A DNA stretch of 48,845 bases from Thermoanaerobaculia bacterium. Its GTDB lineage: Bacteria > Acidobacteriota > Thermoanaerobaculia > UBA5066. The stretch spans positions 1-48,845 of the forward strand of contig JAJVIN010000047.1 in assembly GCA_022071945.1 (NCBI GenBank), in the 5' to 3' direction. Below the pieces are notes generated by a model. The model was not told the origin of the DNA, searched no databases, and was given only the letters and a program-made list of their open reading frames with translations. Both the position numbers and the translations under genes were made by a program. Shown piece by piece: positions 597-40,908 of this stretch. Numbering within the stretch: the first letter of the stretch is position 1; every line of letters starts with the position of its first letter.

Positions 597-1859
597 TCAC
601 TCGGGATGGGATTCCACCCGCACTTCCACTTCGCTCGCCGCCGGTCCGCCCGCGGCCTTCTCGAATCTCGCCCGCTTCACCCATTCGTCCAACCCGCTCG
701 CGGGTCCACTGATCCGGATCACCTTCTTCACCCGGCCGTCCGGGTCCAGGACGACGTGGAAGAGCGCCTTGCTCCCCGGCGCCAGAGGCGGGAGCTCGGA
801 AGCCGGCGCCATTCGCCACTCGGCCGCCCGTCCCCCCGGACCGGTCACCGACACCACCGGACCCTGCCGCTTCTTTCCCTTCGAGAGCGCCGCCTCGTTG
901 GCCGCCAGCCGGCCCGGGGCTCCCGCTTGCGCCGTTGGCGCGCCCGCCACGGCTGGCGCGGCTGCCGGCGGGGCCGCCACCGCGGCCAACCCCTCGTCGG
1001 CTTTCCTTGCCGGAGCCGAGCGCATCGCCGTGGGCTTGTCCTCTGTTCTCGCTCCCGCGGCGTCCGCCACGACCGCCGGAGCAGCCGGGGCCGGACCAGC
1101 CGGGGCCGGGGCCGCCGGGGCTACCGCCCCCGCCACCACGGACTCGGCCTCCCGCTGATCCCGCGTCCGTTCCTCCTTCGCCTCGGGCTGCCTCTCGGCT
1201 GCCTGCGCGACGATGGCCACCGGTTCGCTCGCGGCCCCTGACCCGGCGGCCCGGGCCGCGTCCTCATCCCGGCCCGCCAATCCGGCGGCGGACGGGGCCG
1301 GACCGCGGTCCGGTTCGGCCGATGCCACCTGCACGGGAGACGGTTCGACCGGCCGGGACGCCTGCTCGGCGACCTTCGCGCTTTCCCCTGGCTGCGGCTT
1401 CTCTTCGAAGAAGACCTGAACCGGCCCCTCGATGTCCTTCTCGGGCACGTACTCGCCCGTGGGCCTCCGCCTGGCCGCCACCTGCTCCGGAGACCCTCCG
1501 AGCGTGGCGAGGTAATAGATGGCCACCACCCCGAGACCCGCCATCAGGACGAAGACCGCTCCCATCCGGCGCACGATGCCGAGCCTCAGGAGCACTCCAG
1601 AAAACCCGACCGCCTGGTCCTGAACGCGCGCCGCGATGCGCGTCGACAACGCAAACGGCGTGTCGGGCCCCGGCAGGCTCCGATACTCCTCGACGACCGC
1701 CTGGAGCGACGAGAGCTTCGCGTTCGCCTCGGGATGCCTTTCGAGATAGGTCTCGAACTCGGCCCGCTCCTCGGGGGAGAGATCCCCGTCGAGATAGCGC
1801 GAGCCCAGAAGCTCGAGTTCCTCGTCCCCGAGGGGCTTCAAGGAAGGCACCGCACTCAT
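597..1859 (-). CDS. Anti-sigma factor, single-pass, with TonB-C-like C-terminal domain
   Basis: This 420-residue protein probably holds the ECF sigma factor encoded just upstream inactive at the membrane. Residues 1-80 form an acidic helical domain (DEELELLGSRYLDGDLSPEE) resembling anti-sigma domains but without the HxxxCxxC zinc motif. One membrane helix lies at about 99-121. A long Pro/Ala/Glu-rich linker then leads to residues 345-420, where ALFHVVLDPDGRVKKVIRISG resembles the fold signature of TonB C-terminal domains. Its ATG overlaps the sigma stop codon as ATGA, so the two are translationally coupled. The linker and terminal domain would be periplasmic and could sense envelope state. 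The anti-sigma role rests on context and topology; the TonB-C resemblance is by eye and less certain. Confidence 0.8.
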   Translation of the reverse strand: MSAVPSLKPLGDEELELLGSRYLDGDLSPEERAEFETYLERHPEANAKLSSLQAVVEEYRSLPGPDTPFALSTRIAARVQDQAVGFSGVLLRLGIVRRMGAVFVLMAGLGVVAIYYLATLGGSPEQVAARRRPTGEYVPEKDIEGPVQVFFEEKPQPGESAKVAEQASRPVEPSPVQVASAEPDRGPAPSAAGLAGRDEDAARAAGSGAASEPVAIVAQAAERQPEAKEERTRDQREAESVVAGAVAPAAPAPAGPAPAAPAVVADAAGARTEDKPTAMRSAPARKADEGLAAVAAPPAAAPAVAGAPTAQAGAPGRLAANEAALSKGKKRQGPVVSVTGPGGRAAEWRMAPASELPPLAPGSKALFHVVLDPDGRVKKVIRISGPASGLDEWVKRARFEKAAGGPAASEVEVRVESHPE

Positions 1860-2458
1860 GACAATCGCTCCTTCAGCATCGAGCGCCCGCGCGCGATGCG
1901 GCTCCTCACCGTCCCGACCGGTACTTCCAGCGCCTCGGCGATCTCCTGATAGCTCATCCCCTCGAGGTCCCTGAGGATGACGGCCGTCCGGAACTCCGAA
2001 GGCAAGGCCGCCATCGCCGACCTCAGCTTCTGCCGGCGCTGCCTCTGCAGGGCCTCGTCCTCCGGCGAGAGATTCGGATCCGGCACGTTCGAGAAGAAGA
2101 GCTCCTCCCCGTCGTCCTGGCCCGGTTTCGGGTCGTTCGGAACGAAGTACTCCCGCAGCCGCGACAGGATCCCGCGACGGGCCCGGATCCGGTTCAGCGC
2201 GATCGCCAGGAGCCAGGTCTTCAGCGTCGACTCTCCCCGGAACCGCTCCAGGCCCCGGTAGGCCCGCAGGAACGTCTCCTGCACCACGTCCTCGGCCTCC
2301 GAAGGTCCGAGCATCCGCGCCGCCACGGAGAACACCATGGAGGAGTAGCGCCTGACGATCAGCTCGAATCCCGCCACGTCTCCGGCCAAGAACCGGGTGA
2401 TCGCCCGCTCGTCACCTGGCCAGTCTTGACGCTCTGGGACCTTCACCGGACTCGGCAT
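1856..2458 (-). CDS. ECF-family RNA polymerase sigma factor
   Basis: This is a 200-residue group 4 (RpoE-like) sigma factor that directs RNA polymerase to stress or envelope promoters. Region 2 is clear (FELIVRRYSSMVFSVAARML, then EAEDVVQETFLRAYRGLERF), followed by a variable linker and region 4 with its helix-turn-helix (GMSYQEIAEALEVPVGTVRSRIARGR). The ATG at 2458 was chosen because GGGAG lies about 10 bases upstream and the protein then has normal length; a start at 2569 would add 37 unrelated residues and run through the predicted promoter. It is followed by its anti-sigma gene with a 4-bp overlap and preceded by an ECF-type promoter at 2533-2561, which suggests autoregulation. Confidence 0.94.
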   Translation of the reverse strand: MPSPVKVPERQDWPGDERAITRFLAGDVAGFELIVRRYSSMVFSVAARMLGPSEAEDVVQETFLRAYRGLERFRGESTLKTWLLAIALNRIRARRGILSRLREYFVPNDPKPGQDDGEELFFSNVPDPNLSPEDEALQRQRRQKLRSAMAALPSEFRTAVILRDLEGMSYQEIAEALEVPVGTVRSRIARGRSMLKERLS

Positions 2459-2532
2459 CGCCGGGATTCTCCCACGGCTCCCTGCCGTGAACGACGCCGC
2501 GAGGGAAACCAGGATCGCCTCCATACATGGAC

Positions 2533-2561
2533 TGAGACCCGCGAGAGAGGCGATAAGTTCC
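2533..2561 (-). promoter_or_regulatory. Predicted ECF-sigma promoter (autoregulatory)
   Basis: On the minus strand GGAACTT (2561-2555) is followed by 16 bases and GTCTCA (2538-2533). This matches the GGAAC...GTC pattern of many ECF-dependent promoters. It would start transcription near 2526, about 70 bases before the sigma ATG. The sigma gene is the first gene downstream, so self-activation is the natural reading. Confidence 0.6.
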
Positions 2562-2587
2562 CCGCTCACCTCCCCCGCTGGGGCGGG

Positions 2588-3040
2588 TCATGCGGCAGGA
2601 CCACCCTCGAGGAGCTCTCGCGTCACCCGGTGCCGGTGCGCGAACATCCGGCACAGATCCGGCCGGATGACGAGCCGGTCGATGGCGGCGCCCCCCATCC
2701 GGGCCAGCGGCACCTCGTAGTCGACCCGGTCCGTCAACAGTCCGTCCAAGAAGAGATGCTCGTGACGCCAGAAGGAAAACGGCCCCTTCCTCTGAACGTC
2801 CACGAACCGGACCGGCGGTTCCCACACCTCGATCAGGGAGACCCACTCGAGCGAGACCCCGAACTGCTCCACACGAATCACGATCTCGGCCCCTTCGCCC
2901 ATCGCCGGCGGCAGGCTCACGACCCTGACACGCTTGTCCGGGGGCGAGAGCCGGGGCAGGACCTCGGGGCTCTCGTGCAGGCGCCACAGGACCTCCCTCG
3001 TCACCCCGGGAAGGGCAAGCTCGAACTCGAGGCGAGGCAT
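2588..3040 (-). CDS. SRPBCC (START/Bet v1-like) domain protein
   Basis: This is a 150-residue cytosolic protein without a signal peptide. It has the pattern of the SRPBCC ligand-binding superfamily: an N-terminal strand (MPRLEFELALPGVTREVLWRL) and helix, an alternating strand pattern (AEIVIRVEQFGVSLEWVSLIEVWEPPVRFVDVQ), then FWRHEHLFLDGLLTDRVDYEVPL, the motif seen in proteins of the 'ligand-binding SRPBCC domain' group, and a C-terminal helix. Such proteins bind hydrophobic small molecules; the ligand cannot be told from sequence. The ATG directly abuts the stop codon of the upstream gene at 3041, so the two are co-transcribed. The next gene downstream starts after a 129-base gap holding its own promoter. 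Confidence 0.8.
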   Translation of the reverse strand: MPRLEFELALPGVTREVLWRLHESPEVLPRLSPPDKRVRVVSLPPAMGEGAEIVIRVEQFGVSLEWVSLIEVWEPPVRFVDVQRKGPFSFWRHEHLFLDGLLTDRVDYEVPLARMGGAAIDRLVIRPDLCRMFAHRHRVTRELLEGGPAA

Positions 3041-3646
3041 TCAGTTCGGCGGGACGGGAGTCGGAGTCGGCTTCTTGGCCTTCGGCGGACGCGCCGTGAT
3101 CATGAACCCGTACCCGAGGGAACCCTTGGCGTAGGACCCGAAGTCGTTGAGCTGAACTGCTGGCTGAGGCAGCTGAAGCGGCGGCTCTCCGAGGGTCAGG
3201 ATCTCCACGTCGTCGAGCTTCAGAACGGGCCGGACTCGGGATTCGGGCGCCGTTCCTCCTTCCGGAACCGGATCGGCGTAGCCGAACACATCGATCGCTT
3301 CCTTCAGCCCGATCAGCTTGGCGGGAGCCGTCATCTGTCCGCCCGCCACCACGAAGGGAACCGCGCTCTTGGCCACGGTTCGTCCCTTCTCCTCGACCTC
3401 GATGAAGGACGACTTCGCCCCGTCCGGGACCACGAACCAGCTTCCGGCCTCGTCCCGGTAAACGGCCACGGGGGCCCCGCCGAACTTCACGACCGCGTCT
3501 TTCGAGACGCCCTTCTTCAGGACGACCTTCGCGCCCGTGTTGCCGACCCGGGGTTCGAACTCCAGGGGCGAGGTGTCCGCCCCTTGCGCGGACAAACCCA
3601 GGAGTCCGAAGACGATCGCGACCGCTTTGAGGACGTTCCTCATCAT
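3041..3646 (-). CDS. Exported protein of unknown function (IPT/TIG-like)
   Basis: The 201-residue product starts with a Sec signal peptide (MMRNVLKAVAIVFGLLGLSAQGA, cleavage near residue 23). The mature part begins with PLEFEPRVGNTGAKVVLKKGVSKDAVVKFGG, which resembles IPT/TIG immunoglobulin-like folds in which a position-and-value rule shapes the strands. It ends with a Lys/Pro-rich tail (KAKKPTPTPVPPN). I do not recognise a specific family. The start has two consecutive ATGs; a -10-like TAGAGT lies 5 bases upstream of the first and no Shine-Dalgarno sequence is present, so the mRNA may be leaderless. It is divergent from the LysE-type gene across a 63-base gap and abuts the START-like gene. 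Confidence 0.7.
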   Translation of the reverse strand: MMRNVLKAVAIVFGLLGLSAQGADTSPLEFEPRVGNTGAKVVLKKGVSKDAVVKFGGAPVAVYRDEAGSWFVVPDGAKSSFIEVEEKGRTVAKSAVPFVVAGGQMTAPAKLIGLKEAIDVFGYADPVPEGGTAPESRVRPVLKLDDVEILTLGEPPLQLPQPAVQLNDFGSYAKGSLGYGFMITARPPKAKKPTPTPVPPN

Positions 3647-3709
3647 GATTCACTCTACGCTGCTGGTCCCTCGCCCGCAACCGATCGTGAGAGGATTCGG
3701 GACGAGGAC

Positions 3710-4390
3710 GTGTTCATCCCAGAGTCTCAGACCGCAGCCTTCACCATCTCCTTCGTCTCCGGCCTCGTTTTCGGATTCGCCGGGGCGATCCCGCCGGGAC
3801 CGCTGAACGTGACCGTCATCCGGGATGCCGGGATCGGCCGGACGCGGGAGGCCCTCCGGGCGGCCACCGGGGGGGCCGTCGTCGACGGCCTGATCTGCGG
3901 CCTGGCGGGCTACGGACTCGGCTCGATCCTGGAACGCGTCGTCAACTATCCGGGCGTGCGGCTGGGTCTTGCGATCTTCCTGGTTCTCTATGGCCTCAAG
4001 ATCCTCATCTGGGACCGGCGAAACGAGGGCCGGCCTTCCGCCGCGGGAATCACACCCCAGACGAGCGCCGAGGGCGAGCGGCTCGATCTCTCCTTCTTCG
4101 TCGGGGTGCTGCATGGGGCCGCCAACCCGGCCGTCTTCATCAACTGGACACTCTTCATCGGGTTTCTCGTCAGCCACCAGCTCTTCCGGCCGGGACCGCT
4201 GACCGCTTCCGCCCTGGCCGTGGGAGTCGGGCTCGGAGTCTTCCTCTGGTTTCTCGTCTTGATCGAGCTCGTCACCCGCCTGAAGAACCACCCCGCGGGG
4301 GAGTGGATCAAGAACTCCACCACCCTGGCCGGCGTTCTGCTCGTCGGGTTCGGGCTCGCCTTCACCTGGAAGTCCTTCCGGGCCCTTTGA
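3710..4390 (+). CDS. LysE/RhtB-family transporter
   Basis: The 226-residue inner-membrane protein has the LysE translocator pattern: the start FVSGLVFGFAGAIPPGPLNVTVIRDA contains the conserved PPGP motif of the first helix, and about six hydrophobic segments follow (near residues 10-30, 40-65, 70-90, 130-150, 158-185 and 197-220). The family exports amino acids or other small molecules; the substrate is not predictable. The GTG at 3710 was chosen because it directly precedes the conserved first helix; the open frame extends far upstream but reads through antisense DNA. The histidine kinase gene follows after 9 bases, so they may be co-transcribed. Confidence 0.85.
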   Translation: MFIPESQTAAFTISFVSGLVFGFAGAIPPGPLNVTVIRDAGIGRTREALRAATGGAVVDGLICGLAGYGLGSILERVVNYPGVRLGLAIFLVLYGLKILIWDRRNEGRPSAAGITPQTSAEGERLDLSFFVGVLHGAANPAVFINWTLFIGFLVSHQLFRPGPLTASALAVGVGLGVFLWFLVLIELVTRLKNHPAGEWIKNSTTLAGVLLVGFGLAFTWKSFRAL

Positions 4391-4399
4391 GGTCTCCTC

Positions 4400-5895
4400 A
4401 TGCCGCTTCTGAAGCATCTGCCCCCCCGGCGTCTCTCCTCCCGGCTCGCGCTGACCATGGCCGCCGTGCTCTTCCTGGCCGCCGCCGCGCAGACGCTTCT
4501 CTACTTCAAGACCCGTGACGAGACGGTGCTCGAGGCCGAGGCCTCCTACCAGACTCTCGCCAAGGCAATCGAGGTCGCCGCGATGCAGATCGGCCCCGAT
4601 GGGTGGAAGGACCCGAAGGTCCTCGCCGACTACCGCGACAAGCTGAAGGCGAGCGGCTTGAGAGACATTCAGGTCACCGAAGCGGGCAAGCCGTTTTCCG
4701 AGACGGTCCCGGTGCTCTCCCCATCCGGGCCGGGAGGAGCGAAGAAGAAGGCGGCCAAGCAGCAGGCGATGAAGGACATTCTGATCACCGGAGTCGTCGG
4801 CGAAGGCGCCGCGAACTCCGTCCTTCAGCTTCCGCTCGTCGTCGAGGGCCGCTTTCTGGGCTGGGTCCGGATCGCCTACTCGCTCGAGAACATCCGCGAC
4901 ATCGTCGACGAGAACTTCAGGCGGCGCCTCTATGCCCTGATCGGCGTCTTCGCCCTGGGCCTGGCGGTGATGCTCCTGGTTTCCCGTGACCTGGTCCGGC
5001 CGATCGAGCAGCTTGCCACGGCGGCCGGGCAGGTGGCCGAGGGAGACCTCGAGGTCCGGGTCCCGGCCGAGAGGGCCGACGAGCTCGGCCAGCTGGCCCG
5101 CGCGTTCAACCGGATGACGGAGAAGCTGAAGGAGCGCCAGGAGCTCGAAACCCGTCTCGTTCGCGCCGAAAAGCGGGCCGAGATCGGACACCTCGCCTCC
5201 GGCCTCGCCCACGAGATCAAGAACCCCCTGAACTCGCTCTCCCTGGGCCTCGACGTCCTCAGAAGACGCCACAGCCCTCAGGATCCCGCGTCCGCCGAAG
5301 AGTACGGCTCCCGCATCCAGGTTCTCCGCAGCGAAATCGAGAGGCTCGCCTCCCTCATCAACAGCTTCCTCGCTTTTGGCCGTCCCCTCGTCATGAATAG
5401 GACGAGCGTCAAGCTCCTGGACGTCGTGAAGGCCTCCCTCGACGGCCTCGCGGAACAGGCGGAGAAGGCACGGGTCACGACCCGGCTTCAGATCGACGGA
5501 GAACCGGGGGAGGGCACTCTCGACGGATCTCTCATCAAGTCGGTCGTCTGGAATCTCATCCAGAATGGAATCCAGGCCATGGAGCGGACGGGCGGGACCC
5601 TGACCGTCCACCTCGCGAGGATTCCGGCGGCGGGTGGCGAGGGTGAAGAGTTCGAGCTCGTCATCGCCGACAGCGGTCCCGGCATCGCGCCCGACGATCT
5701 GCCGAGGCTCTTCGAACCCTACTTCTCAAAGAAGGAAGGCGGCGTCGGGCTCGGGCTCGCCATGACCCGCCGGATCATCGAGGAACACGGCGGCCGGATC
5801 CTGGCAAGAAACCGGGAAGGGGAACCCGGGGCTGAATTCATCGTCTGGCTCCCCGTCTCGGCCGGGAATGGCCCGACTTCCGGTAATCTCGCCGC

Positions 5896-5899
<4 letters not shown>
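4400..5899 (+). CDS. Membrane sensor histidine kinase (NtrB/ZraS-like)
   Basis: A 499-residue sensor that autophosphorylates on histidine and passes the phosphate to the regulator encoded next. Membrane helices at about 16-36 and 177-195 enclose a periplasmic sensor of about 140 residues with a Lys/Ala-rich loop. HAMP follows at 196-248, then the dimerisation domain with phospho-acceptor H271 in LAHEIKNPLNSL. The ATPase domain shows the N box NLIQN (385-389), DSGPGIA (424-430) and GVGLGLA (448-454). The HEIKNPL type of H box is typical of kinases that pair with sigma-54 activators. A GAGG site lies 7 bases before the ATG. The gene overlaps the regulator as GTGA. Confidence 0.94.
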
Positions 5900-7278
<1,379 letters not shown>

Positions 7279-31535: not shown

Positions 31536-32429
31536 TTACGGGATATTCACTCGCTCGATGGTTTCCTCGATGACGGCCAGAAACCTCGCGGTTTCCGCGA
31601 CATCGTGAACGCGGACCACGACGGGAGTTCTCGGAGAAACGCGGGCCGCCATCACGACAGCGGCCAGCGATTCCGGGAGCCGGCCGGCCGGTGGTACGCG
31701 CGATGCGGCTCCAAGAAAAGCCTTGCGAGACGCCCCCGCGACGATGACCCTGCCCGGCGGGGCGATCTTTCCAAGATTGGCCAGCAACAAGAAGTTCTCG
31801 TCGGCGCTCTTCCCGAATCCGAATCCAGGGTCTCGCCAGATCTTCTCGGCCGAGACGCCCTCACCGGCGAGCCGCCCCTCGACCGTCTCGAGATCCGCGG
31901 TCACATCCGCCACGACGTTTGCGAAACGCGAGACCGCGAAGGTCGTCGACGGCGTTCCCCGGCAGTGGTTCAGAATCAGAGGAACTCCCGATTCCCTCAC
32001 GAGGGTCACGAGATCGGGGAGAGGATCGAGGCCCGTCACGAGATTCACGATCCGGGCCCCCTCACCCACGGCGGCCCGGGCGACCTCCGGCTTGCGCGTG
32101 TCGATCGAGACGATGGCCTCGGGCCGCTCTGCGAGAATCCCGCGGATTACGGGCAGCACACGGTTCAGCTCTTCCTCCACCGGAATGTCGGACGCCCCTT
32201 CTCCGTAAGTCCCGCTCCTGGGACGTGTCGACTCCCCTCCCACATCCAGGATCGCGGCGCCCTCGTCGAGCAGGCCGAGGGCGTGGGCAACAGCTTTTTC
32301 GGGCTCGAGGAACCGTCCGCCGTCGGAAAACGAGTCGGGGGTGACGTTCACGATCCCCATCACCAGGGGGACAGAACTGAATTGCAGGAAACGGCCGGAG
32401 GACAGAGGAACCGCAAAACCCCGAGACAT
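31536..32429 (-). CDS. folP: Dihydropteroate synthase
   Basis: A 297-residue enzyme that joins p-aminobenzoate to the dihydropterin pyrophosphate in folate synthesis. Family marks: VMGIVNVTPDSFSDGGRF at the pterin site, AAILDVGGESTRPRS, VSIDTRKPEVARAA, NLVTGLDP in place of the usual IND, NHCRGTPSTT (a Met-to-Cys variant of the HMRGTP motif), DPGFGFGKSADEN and IVAGASRKAFLG. ATG 32429 lies 6 bases after TAGGAT; AAGG directly before the ATG is too close to act as a Shine-Dalgarno site. No other folate gene is in the window. The antiporter gene follows in the same orientation. Confidence 0.97.
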   Translation of the reverse strand: MSRGFAVPLSSGRFLQFSSVPLVMGIVNVTPDSFSDGGRFLEPEKAVAHALGLLDEGAAILDVGGESTRPRSGTYGEGASDIPVEEELNRVLPVIRGILAERPEAIVSIDTRKPEVARAAVGEGARIVNLVTGLDPLPDLVTLVRESGVPLILNHCRGTPSTTFAVSRFANVVADVTADLETVEGRLAGEGVSAEKIWRDPGFGFGKSADENFLLLANLGKIAPPGRVIVAGASRKAFLGAASRVPPAGRLPESLAAVVMAARVSPRTPVVVRVHDVAETARFLAVIEETIERVNIP

Positions 32430-32493
32430 CCTTGAATCCTACCCCTCGCCGGGACGGCCCCCGCAGCGTTCCCCGCGCTATTCTGGAACGAGG

Positions 32494-35400
32494 GTGGCTG
32501 AGAGAGATCTCGGTAAGACCGGTGACTCGAGAGTCCGCGGGAAGACGCGGACCCCTGCTGTCGGCTCTGTCCTCGCGGCCGCATTCCTGCTGGCGGTGCC
32601 CCCGGCCAAGGGGCTCGACCCGGCTCCCCCGCTCACCCGGTTCCTGATCGACGTGTGGCAGGCCGAACAGGGGCTCCCCATCAACACCGTGACCGCGGTC
32701 CACCGGACTCCAAGGGGGTACCTGTGGGTCGGGACGGAGGAGGGGCTCGTCCGGTTCGACGGGATTCGCTTCACCATCTTCGACCGGCGCACGACGCCCG
32801 CGCTGGCCAACCACAGCATCTCCGCTCTCTCCGAGGACCGCGACGGAAGCCTCTGGGTTGGAACCCTCGGGGGTGGAGTCGTCCGTCTGGCCCCGTCGGG
32901 CTTCGAGACCGTCCCTCTCGGCGGCGGGAGCCGCGGGGAGTACATCCGGAGCCTTAGCCCCGCGCGGGACGGAGGAGTCTGGGCCGCGACGGATGGAGGC
33001 GCCGTCTTGATCCGCGACCGGAAGCCACAGCGGGCCCTGAGCCAAGCACAGGGACTCCCGGCCGACTCCGTCCGGACGGTTCGAGAAGATTCCAGGGGTC
33101 GCCTCTGGATCGGCACGGACAGCGGTCTCGCCCTCCTGGAGGCGGGCGCGATCACGGTCCTCTCCACCGCGAACGGTCTGCCCTCGGATTGGATCTCGAG
33201 CCTTCTGGAGGACGATTCGGGAACGATCTGGGCGGGCACGACTCGCGGGATCGCCCGCCTTGCGGGGAACCGCTTCGAGCCGGCGTGCGACCTGCCCGCG
33301 TGCCGGACCCAGGTCTGGCAGATCGTTCAGGATCCCGACGGAGCCGTCTTCGCCGCGACGTCGAGCGGTCTCCTGCGGTTCTGGAAGGGTCGCGCCTCCG
33401 TGCTGGACCGCACGGGCGGCCTCGCCCGGGAGCGCCTCTACTGCCTCTCTCCGGACGCCGAGGGAAGCCTCTGGCTCGGAGCCGAAGGCGGGGGCCTCTA
33501 CCGGCTGAAACTCGGGCGCTTCGAGAACATCACCAGCCGCGATGGGCTTCCCGACGACTTCATCATGACCGTCTTCGAGGACTCGTCCGGCAGAATCTGG
33601 ATCGGAACCCCCAAGGGCATGGGCCGCCTCGACCCTGACGGGACGGTCCGCTCCTTTGCCCGTGACTCCGGTCTGCAGTCCGTCGAAATTCGCACGCTTG
33701 GCGAGGGGACCGACGGACGGATGTGGGCTGGAACGCAAGGAGGCGGGGTCGGCACGATCGAGAACGACCGCTTCCGGCGGGCCGTCACCATTCCCGACAA
33801 CAACGCGACGTCGATCCACCCGTCTCCGGATGGCAGCCTCTGGATCGGCACCTTCAACGGGCTCTTCCACCTTCGCGGCAAGACCCTGACGGGATTCGAC
33901 AAAGCGGACGGCCTCCCCTCGAACGAGGTGTTCTGCCTGGCGGCCGACCGCGCCGGAACCCTCTTTCTGGGAACGTACGGGGGCGGCCTGGCGGAAATGA
34001 CAGAGGAGGGGCGTTTCCGGAAGTACCAGATCGCGGACGGAGTCCCCAGCAACACGGTGACGACACTGATGCCGGACGCCGACGGCGGTCTCTGGATCGG
34101 CACGGTCGGAGGCGGCATCGCCCGCCTCTCTGGCGGGAAGTTCTTCACTTTCGATTCCTCTCGTGGACTCTGCGACGACAGTGCCTTCCAGATCGTCGAC
34201 GATCGGGCAGGGTCGCTCTGGACGACGAGCAACCGGGGCATCGCCCGAACCTCCCGGGCCTCGCTTCTCGACGTCGCCGGGGGACGCAGAAGCCGCGTGG
34301 AATGCCAGATGTTCGGCCTGCCAGACGGCCTTCGCACTCGCGAGTGCAACGGTGGCCAACAGCCCGCCGGCATCCGGGCATCGGATGGACGGCTGCTCTT
34401 CGCCACCGCAAGAGGACTCGCCGTACTGGACCCGCGCCGGACGGTGAAGACCAAGACTCCACCCCGGGTCCTGATCGAGGAACTCCGCGCCCGGGGAAAG
34501 AACAGGGACCTCTCGGGCCGGGGCATCCAGCTCGCGCCCGGCGAGAACGACCTGGAGATTCGCTACACGGGGCTCGACCTGTTGTCATCGGAGCAGATTC
34601 GGTTCCGGTACCAGCTCGAGGGGTACGACTCCGACTGGATCGAGGCCGGAAACCGGAGGACGGCCTTCTACACGGGGTTGCCCCCTGGCCAGTTCGTCTT
34701 TCGCGTGGGCGCCTCGAACGCTGACGGCCCTTGGAGCGAGGAGACGGCACGGGTCTCCCTCGAGCTGGCTCCACGGTTCTTCCAGACCCGCTGGTTCCTT
34801 TTCGGAGTGGCTCTTTCCATCGCGGGCGCCGGAGCAATGCTGAACCAGCTGCGGGGACGCCGCACGAGGCGGCGAGCGGCCGAGCTGGCCCGCATCGTCG
34901 AGGAGAAGACGCACGACCTGAGGGAAACCAACGAGAGACTCGAGGAGGCGAACGAGCGAATCGCGCGAATGACCGAGTCCGGGTTCCGGGCCATGGACGA
35001 TGTCGGCGGCTGGGCGGGCCGGATGGCGGCCGACCTCGCGTCCGCGCTCCGTGTTTCCGAGATCGACGTCTACACGCTCGTCGATGAGACCCTGGTGCCG
35101 GTCTCCGGGACTCCCCGGGCCGGCGTTCCCGGGCTGGAAGACCTCAAGCGCGCGACCTCTGAATCCACAGACTTGCGCGCCGGAAGGCCGTCCCTGGTTC
35201 CGATCCGGACGGGCTATGGCGAACTCCTCGGCGCCGTAGCGGTCCCCGAGAGATCCGACCCGTTCTCGTCAGCGGAGGAACGCCTCATCCTCGGATTCTC
35301 CCATCAGCTCGGCGCGACCCTGGAGTTGAAGCGAACCAGGGAGGACCTCGCGCGGGCGATGAGCGTCCGGACCGCGCGCAGGCAGGAGCTGATCGAGAAG

Positions 35401-36435
35401 GGGATCGACATCCTGGAGATCTGTCCGGTCTGTCAGCGCTGCTACGGACATCAACAGGAGAAATGCGCGAGCGACGGGGCTACCCTCGTCCCACCGGCCT
35501 CGTTTCTCCCGTACCGGATCCAGGGAAAGTACCGCCTCCTGCGGGTACTGGGCGAGGGAGGGATGGGGACCGTGTTCGAGGCCGCGGACGAGAGGCTCGA
35601 CCGCAAGGTCGCGCTGAAAGTGATGCGGCTGGACCGCTTCGCCGATCGCGAGATGCTGCTCCGGTTCCAGCGCGAGGCTCGCACACTCGCCCAGATCGAC
35701 CATCCGGGGGTGATCGCGGTCTACGACACGGGAGAGCTGGACGAGGGATCGACCTTCATCGTGATGGAACTCCTGAAAGGCGTCGAACTCGCCACGCTCC
35801 TCAGGACGTTCGGACGCGGGACGCCCTCGCAGGTCGCCCGGCTCCTGTCCCAGGCGGCGAGTGGTCTCGAGGCCGCTCACCGCCAGCGGATCGTCCATCG
35901 GGACATCAAGCCCGAGAACATCGTCTTGACGGGCGGTGAATCAGGATTCCAGACGAAGATCGTTGATTTCGGCCTCGCGAAGAAGATCGATGCGGAAGGG
36001 ATGACCCTGACAGGGATGGTCGTCGGCTCACCGCACTACATGTCCCCCGAGCAGGCGCGAGGCCGGCCGGCAGGGCCCCTGAGCGACTTCTTCTCACTCG
36101 CCACGGTGACCTACGAGGCCCTGACCGGAAGAAAGACGGTCGACGTGGGGGATGCATCGGACATCGGCACCATCCTCTACGACGTGATGATCACGATCCC
36201 GCCGCCTCCGTCGGTGTTCGTCACGGGGCTCTCCCCGGAGATCGACCGGCTCCTCCTGTGGGCGCTGGCGAAGGACCCCAGGGCGCGGCCGCAGAATTCG
36301 GCGGAATGGGTTCCCCTCCTCGTCCAGGAACTCGAATCGACCCCCGCATCGACTCCGGGCTGGCCGGACGACATCGAAGCGCTCGCCTCACCCCGACGTT
36401 CGAGTTCGTCGGTTCCGAGGACCCAGGTCATTTGA
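32494..36435 (+). CDS. Propeller/Y_Y_Y receptor fused to a GAF-like domain and Ser/Thr kinase
   Basis: A 1313-residue transmembrane kinase. A signal peptide ends near residue 45. Residues 55-620 contain about 13 Reg_prop repeats with the GxLWxGTxGGGLxRL pattern, giving two seven-bladed propellers. A Y_Y_Y domain (about 675-760) and a membrane helix (767-786) follow, then a coiled coil and a GAF-like region (about 845-955). A cysteine cluster (C977, C980, C983, C991) precedes the kinase (1008-1290): GEGGMG loop, K1042, HRDIKPEN near 1135 and DFG at 1158-1160. Usually Y_Y_Y receptors end in a histidine kinase. GTG 32494 is nine bases after TATTCT. The signal, probably a glycan or envelope cue, is unknown; the FHA activator downstream is a candidate phospho-reader. 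Confidence 0.93.
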   Translation: MAERDLGKTGDSRVRGKTRTPAVGSVLAAAFLLAVPPAKGLDPAPPLTRFLIDVWQAEQGLPINTVTAVHRTPRGYLWVGTEEGLVRFDGIRFTIFDRRTTPALANHSISALSEDRDGSLWVGTLGGGVVRLAPSGFETVPLGGGSRGEYIRSLSPARDGGVWAATDGGAVLIRDRKPQRALSQAQGLPADSVRTVREDSRGRLWIGTDSGLALLEAGAITVLSTANGLPSDWISSLLEDDSGTIWAGTTRGIARLAGNRFEPACDLPACRTQVWQIVQDPDGAVFAATSSGLLRFWKGRASVLDRTGGLARERLYCLSPDAEGSLWLGAEGGGLYRLKLGRFENITSRDGLPDDFIMTVFEDSSGRIWIGTPKGMGRLDPDGTVRSFARDSGLQSVEIRTLGEGTDGRMWAGTQGGGVGTIENDRFRRAVTIPDNNATSIHPSPDGSLWIGTFNGLFHLRGKTLTGFDKADGLPSNEVFCLAADRAGTLFLGTYGGGLAEMTEEGRFRKYQIADGVPSNTVTTLMPDADGGLWIGTVGGGIARLSGGKFFTFDSSRGLCDDSAFQIVDDRAGSLWTTSNRGIARTSRASLLDVAGGRRSRVECQMFGLPDGLRTRECNGGQQPAGIRASDGRLLFATARGLAVLDPRRTVKTKTPPRVLIEELRARGKNRDLSGRGIQLAPGENDLEIRYTGLDLLSSEQIRFRYQLEGYDSDWIEAGNRRTAFYTGLPPGQFVFRVGASNADGPWSEETARVSLELAPRFFQTRWFLFGVALSIAGAGAMLNQLRGRRTRRRAAELARIVEEKTHDLRETNERLEEANERIARMTESGFRAMDDVGGWAGRMAADLASALRVSEIDVYTLVDETLVPVSGTPRAGVPGLEDLKRATSESTDLRAGRPSLVPIRTGYGELLGAVAVPERSDPFSSAEERLILGFSHQLGATLELKRTREDLARAMSVRTARRQELIEKGIDILEICPVCQRCYGHQQEKCASDGATLVPPASFLPYRIQGKYRLLRVLGEGGMGTVFEAADERLDRKVALKVMRLDRFADREMLLRFQREARTLAQIDHPGVIAVYDTGELDEGSTFIVMELLKGVELATLLRTFGRGTPSQVARLLSQAASGLEAAHRQRIVHRDIKPENIVLTGGESGFQTKIVDFGLAKKIDAEGMTLTGMVVGSPHYMSPEQARGRPAGPLSDFFSLATVTYEALTGRKTVDVGDASDIGTILYDVMITIPPPPSVFVTGLSPEIDRLLLWALAKDPRARPQNSAEWVPLLVQELESTPASTPGWPDDIEALASPRRSSSSVPRTQVI

Positions 36436-37754: not shown

Positions 37755-39572
37755 TCAGCCCTCGGGAGGAGCTATCCCGAGCTTCTCGACCTTGGCTCTG
37801 AGGGTGTCACGCGAGATGCCGAGAAGGTCCGCCGCCTTCGAGCGGTTTCCGCCCGTGCGCGACAGAGCCTCCGCGATCAGCCGCTTCTCCAGGGCATCCA
37901 CCTGCGGCTGCATCCGGAGGTCGTCTGACAGGGGCGAAGCCGGCTCCGGGAGGGTCGCGGGGGGCGGGCCGCTCCGCTCGAGCATCGAGGCCTCGATGAC
38001 GCCCCCATTCGGACAGACGAGAGCGAGCCGCCGCATCTCGTTCTCCAGCTGCCGGACGTTGCCCGGCCAGGGCTCCTCGACGAGCTGCCGGAGGGCCTTC
38101 AACGAGATCCCGAGGATCTCCTTGTTGACCTCCGCCGCGAACCTCGAGAGGAAGTGCTCGGCCAGGACCGGGATGTCCGCCTTCCTGCATCTGAGAGGCG
38201 GAAGCTCCACCGCAAAGCCCGCGAGCCGGTAGAAGACGTCCGCCCTCAACCTCGTCTCGCTGACGAGCTGTCCGGCCGGAGCGTTCGTTGCCGACACGAT
38301 TCGGGCATCGAGACGGGAGGGCTTCCGGCTGCCCACCGGATAGACCTCCCCGGTCTGAAGAACGCGGAGGAGCTTCGTCTGCAGCCCTTGCGGCATCTCC
38401 GCGACCTCGTCGAGGAAGAGGACTCCGCCCGAGGCGATCTGGAAGAGACCCGCGCGCTCCGTCACGCCGGTGGCCGTGCCCTTCTCGATGCCGAAGAGTT
38501 CCGCCTCCAGGAGTTCCGCCGGAACGGCCGCGCAGTTGATCGCCTGGAACGGACCCTTCCGGCGCGAGGACGAAAGGTGGATCGCGCGGGCGATCATCTC
38601 TTTCCCCGTCCCGGTCTCTCCGGTGATGAGAATCGGGATCTCCGTGTCGAGGAACGGGTGGAGTTGCTCCAGAACGCGGCGAAGCTCCATCGACGACCCC
38701 GCCACGAATCCCGGCGGAAAGGCCCACTCCTGCCTCGCCTGCCCCGCCGGCTCCGTGATTCCCGTCTCCGACAGGAGGAGCAGGGTGTGCACCGTTTTCA
38801 GGAGCCAGCGCAGACCGGGGATCGAGGGCTCGACTCCTATTGCGGCCAGGATGTCGATGCCCCCGGCCTCCTGAGTCGCGACAGATGCAAACGTCGGCTC
38901 TGGCTCCGAGACCGAGGCGAACCCCTCGATCGGCTTGGACGACACCTGGTCGAGGAGAGCTGGCAGGGCGTGCAGGTGGGAACTGCCGCCCCGGAACTCC
39001 CGGACCAGAGGTTCGTTCTTCCGGTCCCAGCCGACATGGACGACGGCCGCCGCCTCGAGGAGTTCGCGGAGTTCCTCCAGGCTGGGCCCCCTCGATCCTT
39101 CCTTTCCCAGAGCAAGCGGGCGGACGGCTCCGGCCAGATAGCGCATCCAGACCGCATCCGTTCCCACAGCCTTCGGCGTCAGGATTCCGGTCTGCCGGAC
39201 GAGGGTCTTCTCCGGTGCCGCGATCCGGACCGCGAGCGGAATGGCGATCTCGGCCTCTTCGGGGTCGATCAGATCGAGATCGATCGGGACCGAACCGAGG
39301 CGCAGCTTGTCTCCCGCACTGAGCGGGGAAACCCGGACCCTCTGTCCGTTGACGAACGTCCCGTTGGTGCTCCCGAGGTCCTCGATCTCCAGCCGGTCCT
39401 TGGACCGGCGCAAGACCGCGTGGCGGCGGGAGACCGCCGTGTCCGCGATGACGACCGCGTTGTCGGGCTGGGAGCCGACACCCGAGGTTCCCTCGCGAAT
39501 CAGAAACTGGTGGACCCTTCCGTCCAGGGTCCACCGGATTCTGTACAGACTCGCTTCGGGCCCCGTCGCCAT
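37755..39572 (-). CDS. FHA-domain sigma-54 enhancer-binding protein
   Basis: A 605-residue transcription activator. An N-terminal FHA domain (residues 10-95; GSQPDNAVVIADTAVSRRHAVL, then GSTNGTFVNGQRV) should bind phosphothreonine. A GAF-like middle region (110-290) follows, then the AAA+ domain: Walker A GETGTGKE, Walker B LFLDEVAEM and arginine finger region. The sigma-54 loop reads GTATGV instead of GAFTGA. A Fis-type helix-turn-helix ends the protein (GNRSKAADLLGISRDTLRAKVEKLGI). The ATG at 39572 starts directly before the FHA domain; a GTG at 39674 overlapping the upstream stop codon as GTGA is the alternative and would add 34 low-complexity residues. FHA activators of this type are usually switched on by Ser/Thr kinases. 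Confidence 0.92.
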   Translation of the reverse strand: MATGPEASLYRIRWTLDGRVHQFLIREGTSGVGSQPDNAVVIADTAVSRRHAVLRRSKDRLEIEDLGSTNGTFVNGQRVRVSPLSAGDKLRLGSVPIDLDLIDPEEAEIAIPLAVRIAAPEKTLVRQTGILTPKAVGTDAVWMRYLAGAVRPLALGKEGSRGPSLEELRELLEAAAVVHVGWDRKNEPLVREFRGGSSHLHALPALLDQVSSKPIEGFASVSEPEPTFASVATQEAGGIDILAAIGVEPSIPGLRWLLKTVHTLLLLSETGITEPAGQARQEWAFPPGFVAGSSMELRRVLEQLHPFLDTEIPILITGETGTGKEMIARAIHLSSSRRKGPFQAINCAAVPAELLEAELFGIEKGTATGVTERAGLFQIASGGVLFLDEVAEMPQGLQTKLLRVLQTGEVYPVGSRKPSRLDARIVSATNAPAGQLVSETRLRADVFYRLAGFAVELPPLRCRKADIPVLAEHFLSRFAAEVNKEILGISLKALRQLVEEPWPGNVRQLENEMRRLALVCPNGGVIEASMLERSGPPPATLPEPASPLSDDLRMQPQVDALEKRLIAEALSRTGGNRSKAADLLGISRDTLRAKVEKLGIAPPEG

Positions 39573-39670
39573 CTCTCGGTCTCTGGTCAATCCCGAGAGA
39601 TTCCACCACGGGAGGAGGCGGAAGGAAACCGGCCGGGGGACGGAGCCCGTGGGGACCGCCCCTGCCGGGT

Positions 39671-40612
39671 TCACTGGAAGGCCTGCCAGCCGGGGTAGAT
39701 CTCGCCCGCCTGCTTGCCCAGCACGGGCGCCAGCGCCTTCACCTCGTCCCGGACGATGTCATGGGCCCAGTTCGTCGCCGCGGGGATCAACTCGATCGCG
39801 GACGCATAGAACTCGCCGAAGACCGGGATCAGGCTCGCCACGATCTGGAGCCCGCTCAAGGTCAGCGACTTGCCGTTGATCGAGACCGCGGTCTGCTTGT
39901 TCAGGACGTCCGCGTACTGGATCGCCTTGCTCAGCGTGCCCGCGAAGTCCAGCGGCCCCTGAGACGCCTCGAGCACCTTGTCCTCGATCGTCGGATGCGC
40001 GAGCCAGAGAAGGGGCTTGGCCTTCTCGGCGTAATCGATGATCTTGTCGATGTCGCCCGAGACCGTCTGGGCCGTCACGTCGTCGGCGAGGTTGTTCTTC
40101 TTGCCCTTCTTGATCGCGTCGACGATGGCGGCCGCGGTGCTCTTGTGCTCCTTCACCAGTTCCAGAAGGCTCGCGAACTTCTCGTTGACCTTGTCGGCAA
40201 AGTGCTTGGGGCCGAGCGGGACGTCCGAGACATTCGAACTGTCCGACGTCGACCAGATCGGGCTCGATTCCTTGGAGTAGTAGACCCCCGTCCCCGAGAA
40301 CTTCCAGTTCTTCCCGTCCTTCTTGAAGCGCTCCGCGCACGACATCAGGCTGTTCGGGTTGCCGACCGCCATGGCTCCCCAGGAGGCAATGTCGCTCCAC
40401 TCCCCGTTGAACGCGGCGCACGACCAGAGGGCGGTGTTCATCTGTTCCTTGTGCTTGGCGTCCGGACACTTCTTGATGTTCTGGCTGGCCTGGAAGTAGA
40501 AGGCGAAGCAGCGGTTGGTGAAATCCAGGGCGTCTCCCGTCAGCTTGGAGTTCGTGCCGTTCAGGATCAGCTGGACCGATCCGCCGATGAACCCGTTGCT
40601 CGATGTGCTCAT
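39671..40612 (-). CDS. Unrecognised 313-residue protein behind a sigma-54 promoter
   Basis: The product has no signal peptide and resembles no family I know. The first 140 residues are rich in Asn, Ser, Gly, Phe and Trp with several Cys (TNRCFAFYFQASQNIKKC, ALWSCAAFNGEWSDIASWGAM). The middle is Lys-rich and helical (KKGKKNNLADDVTAQTVSGDIDKIIDYAEKAK). A hydrophobic stretch near 255-290 (LQIVASLIPVFGEFYASAIELIPAA) could insert in a membrane or form a helical hairpin. Composition differs from its neighbours, with more Lys and Asn. The ATG at 40612 follows GGGAGG by 5 bases. The FHA activator gene is next downstream; the pair is probably co-transcribed or co-regulated. An effector or toxin-like role is possible but is speculation. 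Confidence 0.75.
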   Translation of the reverse strand: MSTSSNGFIGGSVQLILNGTNSKLTGDALDFTNRCFAFYFQASQNIKKCPDAKHKEQMNTALWSCAAFNGEWSDIASWGAMAVGNPNSLMSCAERFKKDGKNWKFSGTGVYYSKESSPIWSTSDSSNVSDVPLGPKHFADKVNEKFASLLELVKEHKSTAAAIVDAIKKGKKNNLADDVTAQTVSGDIDKIIDYAEKAKPLLWLAHPTIEDKVLEASQGPLDFAGTLSKAIQYADVLNKQTAVSINGKSLTLSGLQIVASLIPVFGEFYASAIELIPAATNWAHDIVRDEVKALAPVLGKQAGEIYPGWQAFQ

Positions 40613-40637
40613 GTCGTCCTCCCTGGCTGATCCTCCT

Positions 40638-40653
40638 TGCGACTTTCGCGCCA
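40638..40653 (-). promoter_or_regulatory. Predicted sigma-54 (-24/-12) promoter
   Basis: On the minus strand TGGCGCGAAAGTCGCA matches the sigma-54 consensus TGGCACGN4TTGCA except at two positions. The invariant GG and GC are present with the required 10-base spacing. Transcription would start near 40628, giving a leader of about 16 bases with a GGGAGG ribosome site before the ATG at 40612. Confidence 0.75.
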
Positions 40654-40739
40654 GGGATCCGCGACCGTCAACCGCGTCGGATTCGATTGATTCGAACGAT
40701 TTACACGGGGCGTACCCAGCCAGTTGGCGGCCAGGCGTG

Positions 40740-40774
40740 GCGGATTTCTCCGCAGGGTGCCGAGAAACTCGGCA
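40740..40774. promoter_or_regulatory. Two palindromic enhancer-type sites upstream of the sigma-54 promoter
   Basis: GCGGA-TTTC-TCCGC (40740-40753) and TGCCGAG-AAA-CTCGGCA (40758-40774) are perfect inverted repeats that share the pattern GCSGAGAAA(C)TCSGC when the first is read on the minus strand. They lie about 110-148 bases upstream of the predicted sigma-54 start, and their centres are about 20 bases (two helical turns) apart. This is the usual placement of upstream activating sites for NtrC-type activators. Confidence 0.6.
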
Positions 40775-40908
40775 GCCACGGCCCCGCTGGATAAGACCCA
40801 TCGCGTCGTGAGACAGGAATCACAGGCGCGGAAACGGATCTGCGCTACGCTCCCGATCCCATCGCCCGAATCAACGGGGTGCGGAACCCTCGAACGGAGG
40901 CTGGTGCC

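Follow-up and report, generated by a model that had tools for sequence, protein, structure and literature searches.

Textbook accounts commonly divide bacterial signalling into two distinct systems, one of histidine kinases with coiled-coil levers and one of eukaryote-type kinases without them. Among the former, HTCS proteins of the BT4663 type (heparin-sensing, Bacteroides) combine Reg_prop propellers, a Y_Y_Y domain and one transmembrane (TM) helix. Among the latter, the PASTA receptor kinases PknB and StkP are single-pass receptors, and PknB has its kinase at the N-terminus and its sensor at the C-terminus. The same order is seen in PknD of Mycobacterium tuberculosis, where an N-terminal kinase is followed by a C-terminal, six-bladed propeller; PknD is not known to have a Y_Y_Y domain, GAF domain or cysteine segment. 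Two reports describe PknD as a receptor Ser/Thr kinase with a β-propeller outside the cell (PMC2877116, PMC6213207). In a 2006 survey, the S-helix was never found upstream of a eukaryote-type Ser/Thr kinase (PMC1592074).

The window, i.e., the whole 48,845-nucleotide stretch of DNA that was analysed, contains a gene that combines parts of both. Its product shares the propellers, the Y_Y_Y domain and the single TM helix with the BT4663-type HTCS, which are its best solved sensor relatives, but Pfam revealed no HisKA, HATPase_c or receiver domain, and the output is a Hanks-type kinase (PF00069). With PknB and StkP it shares the single-pass receptor plan and a PknB-like kinase domain (PknB is the nearest known kinase; the domains are 37–39% identical), whereas it has no PASTA domain by Pfam and its part order is the opposite. 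A β-propeller outside the membrane is shared with PknD, but again the order is reversed, and there are about 14 blades. Finally, the REC-GAF-Cys-Ser/Thr kinases (L072, L081 and others) share the GAF domain, the helix, the cysteine segment and the kinase, but their input is a two-component receiver, not a propeller. The open literature that we searched, including the available parts of PMC8534201 and PMC10269533, yielded no description of a Reg_prop/Y_Y_Y sensor joined to a Ser/Thr kinase. Nor did it yield an account of propeller regulators in Acidobacteria, and searches on kinase architectures and on zinc ribbons brought up no match.

Architecture and distribution of the receptor kinase

The reading frame is open throughout from a GTG codon at 32341 to 36435 (1364 aa), and residue numbers are counted from that start (51 is to be taken off for a start at 32494). 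The GTG at 32494 is codon 52 of the same frame and is directly followed by a basic and hydrophobic, signal-like stretch. It is the likelier start, because a start at 32341 overlaps an opposite-strand ORF (31536–32429). From its N-terminus, the product has about 14 propeller blades followed by Y_Y_Y and a single membrane helix; a coiled coil, a putative compact GAF domain and CPVCQRC-x7-C-x2-D then lead to a Hanks-type kinase (Table 1). Reg_prop (185 bits in 8 stretches), Y_Y_Y (56.9 bits; cut-off, 26.6) and Pkinase (151 bits; cut-off, 31.7) all scored above their Pfam cut-offs. These scores, combined with 21 further proteins of identical part order, exclude a chance origin and confirm that the receptor-kinase architecture reported in the first-pass annotation is real. 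That annotation had also credited the kinase with all key residues, and indeed GEGGMG, K1093, E1112, HRDIKPEN (1186–1193) and DFG (1209) were all present; the seven catalytic positions checked showed no variation in any of the 31 sequences aligned.

Table 1. Features of the receptor kinase gene and its product, with positions in the window
Feature	Position	Strand	Basis or remark
Propeller/Y_Y_Y receptor Ser/Thr kinase gene	32494..36435	+	Alternative in-frame GTG start 32341
Signal-peptide-like N-terminal stretch, basic then hydrophobic (aa 69-95)	32545..32625	+	Predicted; hydropathy maximum 71-74
Reg_prop region, 14 repeats of ~42 aa	32626..34461	+	Pfam; repeat spacing; Foldseek on low-confidence model
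Y_Y_Y domain (aa 745-810)	34573..34770	+	Pfam
Transmembrane helix (aa 818-838)	34792..34854	+	Hydropathy; alignment
Juxtamembrane coiled coil with S-helix signature E855-K856-T857 (aa 839-880)	34855..34980	+	Alignment; definition PMC1592074
Putative compact GAF domain (~aa 888-975)	35002..35265	+	Pfam; predicted secondary structure
43-residue helix, GAF to cysteine segment (aa 977-1019)	35269..35397	+	Predicted helix, model residues 116-158
Zinc-ribbon-like segment CPVCQRCYGHQQEKCASDG: C1028, C1031, C1042, D1045; extra C1034	35422..35478	+	Alignments, model, profile comparison
Hanks-type Ser/Thr kinase domain, PknB-like (aa 1062-1325)	35524..36315	+	Pfam; catalytic residues; Foldseek PknB

The full architecture, defined as a match to profile A3 running from positions 1–4 to 343–344, was detected in 22 proteins from 14 genomes, all of them Acidobacteriota as far as sampled (1,713 genome searches, in which some genomes were counted more than once). 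The phylum survey located it at 13 places, a lower bound because 5–10 candidates were scored in each of its 396 genomes; three other scans were scored in this way and their counts are likewise minima. The family survey located it at 15 places in 7 of the 14 family genomes, 8 of these 15 being also in the 396-genome survey, and 2 of the 6 genomes reached via named loci carried it. Two other phyla (282 and 200 genomes) did not yield it, and viral contigs gave three distant matches only, to the stretch comprising the cysteines and the start of the kinase. The full-length relatives are 31–43% identical from the propeller through the kinase, and the linker across the sensor–kinase joint is conserved in them. 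The searches uncovered a conserved class; that the class might already be widespread and characterised does not hold, since it was detected in 7 of 396 sampled phylum genomes and no characterisation appears in the literature searched. When ORFs were compared between the window and 12 relatives (13 loci), no conserved neighbour gene emerged, save in one near-identical pair, so the neighbourhood suggests neither a target nor a ligand. An FHA-sigma54 activator at 37755–39674 was dropped as a candidate target of the kinase for the same reason.

From the sensor to the cysteine segment

A W-x-G-T repeat was seen 14 times at regular spacing in the propeller region and, by analogy with BT4663, the 14 repeats probably form two 7-bladed propellers. 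The best Foldseek matches of the sensor model were 4a2m, 4a2l and 3v9f, at a TM-score of about 0.3 with a weak model (pLDDT 65.8); because this model is poor, the blade number and the global fold rest on sequence. The signal-like stretch and the TM helix suggest that Y_Y_Y and the Reg_prop repeats lie on the outer side of the membrane. The coil that follows the TM helix carries the ERT signature in register c-d-e, with V853, L860, L867 and I874 at the a positions, and in the aligned coils T and R/K were each conserved in 20 of 21 rows and E in 11 of 21. It shares the signature of S-helix proteins but precedes a eukaryote-type Ser/Thr kinase. Judged by this signature, an ERT-type S-helix coil upstream of such a kinase is new and contrary to the 2006 survey (PMC1592074). 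By eye, the coil is common to 18 of 19 histidine-kinase paralogues. In the SpoIIE-linked sensors (L128 and L132), the propeller and Y_Y_Y were present and the coil signature was absent.

In the window protein, the region described as GAF-like scored 15.9 bits, under the Pfam GAF cut-off of 22.4, whereas the stretch aligned to it in L071, a paralogue from the same genome, reached 30.6 bits.

The CxxCxxCx7C cluster reported ahead of the kinase was found exactly as given (C1028, C1031, C1034 and C1042), with D1045 after it. Far from being unconserved, two C-x2-C/D knuckles were present in 63 of 63 relatives, a count that is partly circular because profiles A1, A2 and A3 contain the cysteines; the fourth position was D in 62 and C in one, and C also in L169. 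In a check on other kinases, the segment was present in 8 and absent from 22 of the 30 top kinase matches in the same genome. The segment was modelled at pLDDT 94–95, adjoining the 43-residue helix. The window's own segment matched no Pfam zinc family; among 40 members, 4 matched Zn_ribbon_3 (best E, 1.5e-4) and 6 matched ADK_lid, and the segment profile aligned to the bL32 ribbon at an E of 0.04. The pattern reads as C-x2-C-x10/11-C-x2-D (D sometimes C), a putative zinc ribbon with an extra, less constant middle cysteine. The segment also occurs in kinases with REC or multi-TM inputs, and three Y_Y_Y-kinases of another build do without it, which indicates that it is not what allows a propeller to work with a Ser/Thr kinase. 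The cluster is conserved, but its distribution assigns the cysteines to the kinase module and not to the propeller.

The extra cysteine raises the question of whether the segment acts as a redox switch, in which C1034 and its neighbours would make or break disulfides, or lose zinc on oxidation, and so set kinase activity, the propeller being a second input. C1034 would be dispensable for a C3D zinc site, yet 61 of 63 relatives retain it, as does most of the wider group. By contrast, it is replaced by V in L073 and L083 (an own-genome paralogue and the most similar full-length relative, respectively), where the rest of the architecture is intact. Moreover, a scan of the neighbouring genes, none of which is conserved, turned up no obvious redox partner, and a structural site would account for D1045 and the other three cysteines. 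We consider a redox switch unlikely and favour the zinc-ribbon reading.

Output swapping and a proposed signalling route

The 24 Y_Y_Y sensors of the window genome comprise 17 linked to histidine kinases, 4 to Ser/Thr kinases, 2 to SpoIIE phosphatases and 1 to GGDEF, which bears out the premise that such sensors usually drive histidine kinases. In a separate count, L285, the full frame of locus L262, was seen to carry a kinase as well. The proposal that output chemistry has been swapped was upheld as well: a Hanks-type kinase here sits behind a sensor of this kind, and the trees point to more than one event. One common origin for the kinase-linked sensors was rejected (log-likelihood loss 307, p-AU 3.8e-10), and the sensor tree with four output labels contained 10 changes. 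According to these trees, which come from quick searches and from sequences that are repetitive and diverged, outputs have been swapped repeatedly among Y_Y_Y sensors.

The protein is likely to be a transmembrane receptor Ser/Thr kinase in which an HTCS-type sensor acts through the TM helix, the S-helix coil, the GAF domain and a zinc-ribbon clip to switch a PknB-like kinase. A ligand would move the outside sensor, made up of the Reg_prop propellers and Y_Y_Y. The movement would cross the one membrane helix, enter a dimeric coil of the signalling-helix type, marked by the ERT signature, and pass the compact GAF domain and then the 43-residue helix to the clip, which would hold zinc and lie against the kinase N-lobe. 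Movement of the clip would switch trans-autophosphorylation of the kinase, in one direction or the other, and in this way reach its presumed targets. It is possible, though doubtful, that this route exemplifies a general acidobacterial class, in which bacterial-type inputs (two-component propellers, S-helix coils and receivers) would drive eukaryote-type Ser/Thr kinases via an N-lobe-clamping zinc-ribbon adaptor. Such an adaptor, in which the extra cysteine would serve as a redox gate, may help rotating or sliding coil signals to control a Hanks kinase, contrary to the older view that the two are incompatible.

Alternatively, the propeller might not drive the kinase at all, the outside part being an anchor or scaffold while the GAF domain or other kinases (about 100 in the genome) set activity. 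The 107 kinase matches in the window genome are compatible with this arrangement, as is the presence of the GAF-Cys-kinase module in other proteins that have no propeller. However, sensors of this kind are attached to four different types of output in this genome, which points to a role in signal transmission, and we regard a propeller-independent kinase as quite improbable. An artefact of annotation or assembly (a chimera, or the loss of a stop codon between two genes) has a negligible chance of being the explanation, for although the genome assembly is in 69 contigs, the identical part order in independent genomes and the linker conserved over the joint refute it.

One sensor–membrane–coil unit is found ahead of histidine kinases, of Ser/Thr kinases and also of diguanylate cyclases, often within one cell. 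Bacteria rewire a single type of sensor to different types of signal, and a lineage with about 100 Ser/Thr kinases in this genome gains a class with a recognisable input. Because this unit is shared and the sensors have repeatedly crossed between outputs, natural sensor pairs make it directly testable whether the same mechanical signal may control chemically unrelated enzymes.

Domain organization and distribution of the receptor kinase

A single reading frame covers the receptor gene and is open from an in-frame GTG at 32341, from which residues are numbered here (subtract 51 for the start at GTG 32494). Its product matched Reg_prop, Y_Y_Y and Pkinase of Pfam, all above their respective cut-offs, with 14 W-x-G-T repeats, spaced by about 42 residues, N-terminal of Y_Y_Y. 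The first-pass annotation had described a Hanks-type kinase with all key residues, and the full catalytic set was indeed present. The nearest solved structures to the kinase were mycobacterial PknA and PknB. Those nearest to the sensor by sequence were BT4663 and other Bacteroides two-component sensors; BT4663-type sensors were also its top fold matches, obtained with a weak predicted model.

Coordinates of the receptor gene, its neighbors and a related composite frame
Sequence	Position	Strand	Feature
Window	32494-36435	+	Propeller/Y_Y_Y receptor Ser/Thr kinase
Window	37755-39674	-	FHA-sigma54 activator with Fis HTH, two genes from the kinase gene
Window	39671-40801	-	376-aa protein without Pfam match
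L285 (genome G084)	1042-6906	-	Single 1955-aa frame

Eleven proteins (L071, L073, L074, L075, L077, L078, L079, L083, L084, L091 and L093, the last ending at a contig end) matched the window receptor from propeller to kinase over most of its length. In the window's phylum, 7 of 396 genomes held 13 end-to-end matches to profile A3, which spans Y_Y_Y, the TM helix, coil, GAF, cysteines and kinase start; this count is a lower bound, since the phylum-wide searches scored only 5-10 candidates per genome. In the window's family, 7 of 14 genomes held 15 such matches, and they also occurred in 2 of 6 genomes that named loci pointed to. Because 8 places were common to the 396-genome and 14-genome searches, these searches together yielded 22 proteins in 14 genomes, window included. 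The phyla of G419 (282 genomes) and G420 (200 genomes), searched at the same depth, gave no end-to-end match, only Y_Y_Y-side or GAF-kinase-side ones. Relatives in named records were mostly Acidobacteriota, including Thermoanaerobaculia, Holophagales and Vicinamibacteria, with two exceptions by label, one Deltaproteobacteria MAG and one Gemmatimonadetes.

According to the available portions of the respective sources, PknD has a propeller (PMC2877116, PMC6213207), WD- and PQQ-repeat kinases and GAF-HisK-kinase fusions are on record (PMC1262709), BT4663 is a Y_Y_Y sensor (PMC8534201), 7.7% of transmembrane transcription regulators contain Y_Y_Y (PMC10269533), and the account of Planctomycetota kinase architectures mentions no propeller (PMC11032199). 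Those portions of the six sources contain no description of Reg_prop/Y_Y_Y joined to a Ser/Thr kinase.

Outputs of Y_Y_Y sensors and their repeated joining to kinases

The window's genome (6.2 Mb, 69 contigs) holds 24 Y_Y_Y places, with HisKA plus HATPase (15), HATPase only (2), Ser/Thr kinase (4: the window, L071, L073 and L074), GGDEF (1) or SpoIIE (2) as output; with 17 of 24 in the first two groups, the expectation that such sensors usually feed histidine kinases held. A fifth kinase receptor, L075, was found via its kinase half and A3; its Y_Y_Y fell below detection in the genome-wide search and is outside the count of 24. The SpoIIE phosphatase-linked sensors (L128 on contig C10, L132 on C58) and the propeller kinases may possibly be opponents under like sensors.

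A phylum-wide draw by Y_Y_Y alone gave matches in 37 of 60 genomes. Of 29 frames in the loci retrieved from it, a script assigned 3 to Ser/Thr kinases, 9 to HisKA (one of them, L262, a cut piece of L285) and 7 to GGDEF; the 10 that it left unassigned were by eye HisKA_3-like (6), SpoIIE-like (2), EAL-like (1) and sigma54/Fis-like (1). The L285 frame itself carries Reg_prop, Y_Y_Y, HisKA, HATPase_c, a receiver, an adenylate/guanylate cyclase, the cysteine segment and a Ser/Thr kinase. Its last 720 aa, compared with 297 phylum genomes (E 1e-80), were matched over their whole length in G084 only; in 13 other genomes the match was confined to one side, either receiver-cyclase or kinase.

In quick trees of diverged, partly repetitive sequences with some rows of odd composition, on which account exact change counts are soft, the kinase label had to change 7 times across 45 sensor regions (20 kinase-linked), with supported branches forcing at least 5 of these changes; across 63 GAF-kinase modules the propeller label had to change 8 times (3 or more of them forced) and the receiver label once. 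Constraining the 20 kinase-linked sensors to one clade cost 307 log-likelihood units (p-AU 3.8e-10); the suggested swap of output chemistry is accompanied by rejection of a single-clade origin. That sensors and kinase modules were joined more than once is well supported by these sequence comparisons. We conclude that propeller/Y_Y_Y receptor Ser/Thr kinases are a real, conserved class, repeatedly assembled from known parts.

The cysteine segment and the kinase module

The CxxCxxCx7C pattern is present as described, followed by x2-D, and the segment occurred in 63 of 63 GAF-kinase frames, a set chosen partly by a profile that itself contains it; the third cysteine proved less constant (61 of 63), and the last ligand is D in 62, with C in the remaining frame. 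Because V replaces the third cysteine in L073, L083 and another kinase, L169 (C-x2-C...C-x2-C), the constant set is C1028, C1031, C1042 and D/C1045, which would correspond to that of zinc ribbons. In Bacillus adenylate kinase, zinc is held by a C-C-C-D site. The segment profile matched the bL32 ribbon (E 0.04), and of 40 members 4 matched Zn_ribbon_3 and 6 matched ADK_lid; these matches are weak but agree with a zinc ribbon. In the predicted model the segment (pLDDT 94-95) lies shortly after the 43-residue helix from GAF. The 30 strongest kinase matches in the window's genome comprise 8 with the segment and 22 without it. The segment is not required to couple propeller to kinase, since it is lacking in L258 (Y_Y_Y-TM-coil-kinase), in L265 (Y_Y_Y-TM-kinase directly) and, over the part examined, in L264, which is similar by domain positions.

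The unit of GAF, long helix, cysteine segment and kinase also stands behind other inputs. Many modules have multi-TM N-termini, and 13 proteins, all with visible receiver hallmarks, have a receiver (L072 on own-genome contig C4, L076, L081, L082, L087, L089, L090, L096, L098, L106, L108, L110 and L204). Such response regulators would link His-Asp phosphorelay directly to Ser/Thr phosphorylation. No histidine-kinase-like frame was seen near 9 loci examined, 2 of them (L112, L113) propeller-linked. A further build, L192 (genome G031), is a propeller-Y_Y_Y protein in which a large hydrophobic insert precedes the GAF-cysteine-kinase part. Three IMG/VR contigs (L241, L242, L243) encode the cysteine segment and kinase start; despite the viral collection, L241-L243 are perhaps bacterial DNA. 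The GAF-kinase query gave 107 matches in the window's genome, a very large Ser/Thr kinase set.

Proposed signal transfer and the juxtamembrane coil

Neighboring genes, compared between the window and relatives, suggested no ligand or target. The FHA-sigma54 activator is conceivable as a substrate because FHA reads phospho-Thr; the pairing is not kept in relatives, and the activator was dropped as a candidate target. Most likely, a ligand would bind the outside part and move the coil, the movement would pass through GAF and the long helix, and the ribbon, close to the kinase in the chain, would press against its N-lobe, upon which the kinase would trans-autophosphorylate; binding and autophosphorylation are modeled on BT4663-type hybrid two-component systems and PknB-type kinases.

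The coil of the window receptor has the sequence V853 x E855-K856-T857 xx L860, with L867 and I874 further on. An alignment of 21 receptors, which includes the near-copies L077/L078/L080 and L112/L113 and omits L192, has T in 20 rows, R or K likewise in 20, and E in 11. By eye, 18 of 19 propeller receptors of the histidine-kinase type (11 of 19 with a stricter scripted pattern) and 4 of 4 GGDEF ones have the same coil; it was not seen in 2 SpoIIE paralogues, nor found by pattern in the 13 receiver-linked kinases. The available portion of a survey of the signaling helix (S-helix) states that it never lies upstream of a eukaryote-type S/T kinase (PMC1592074), a statement dating from 2006 to which later exceptions may exist. 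Judged by signature and register, the propeller receptor Ser/Thr kinases, in which GAF and ribbon sit between the putatively dimeric coil and the kinase, are an exception to this rule, and this is the most surprising point about them.
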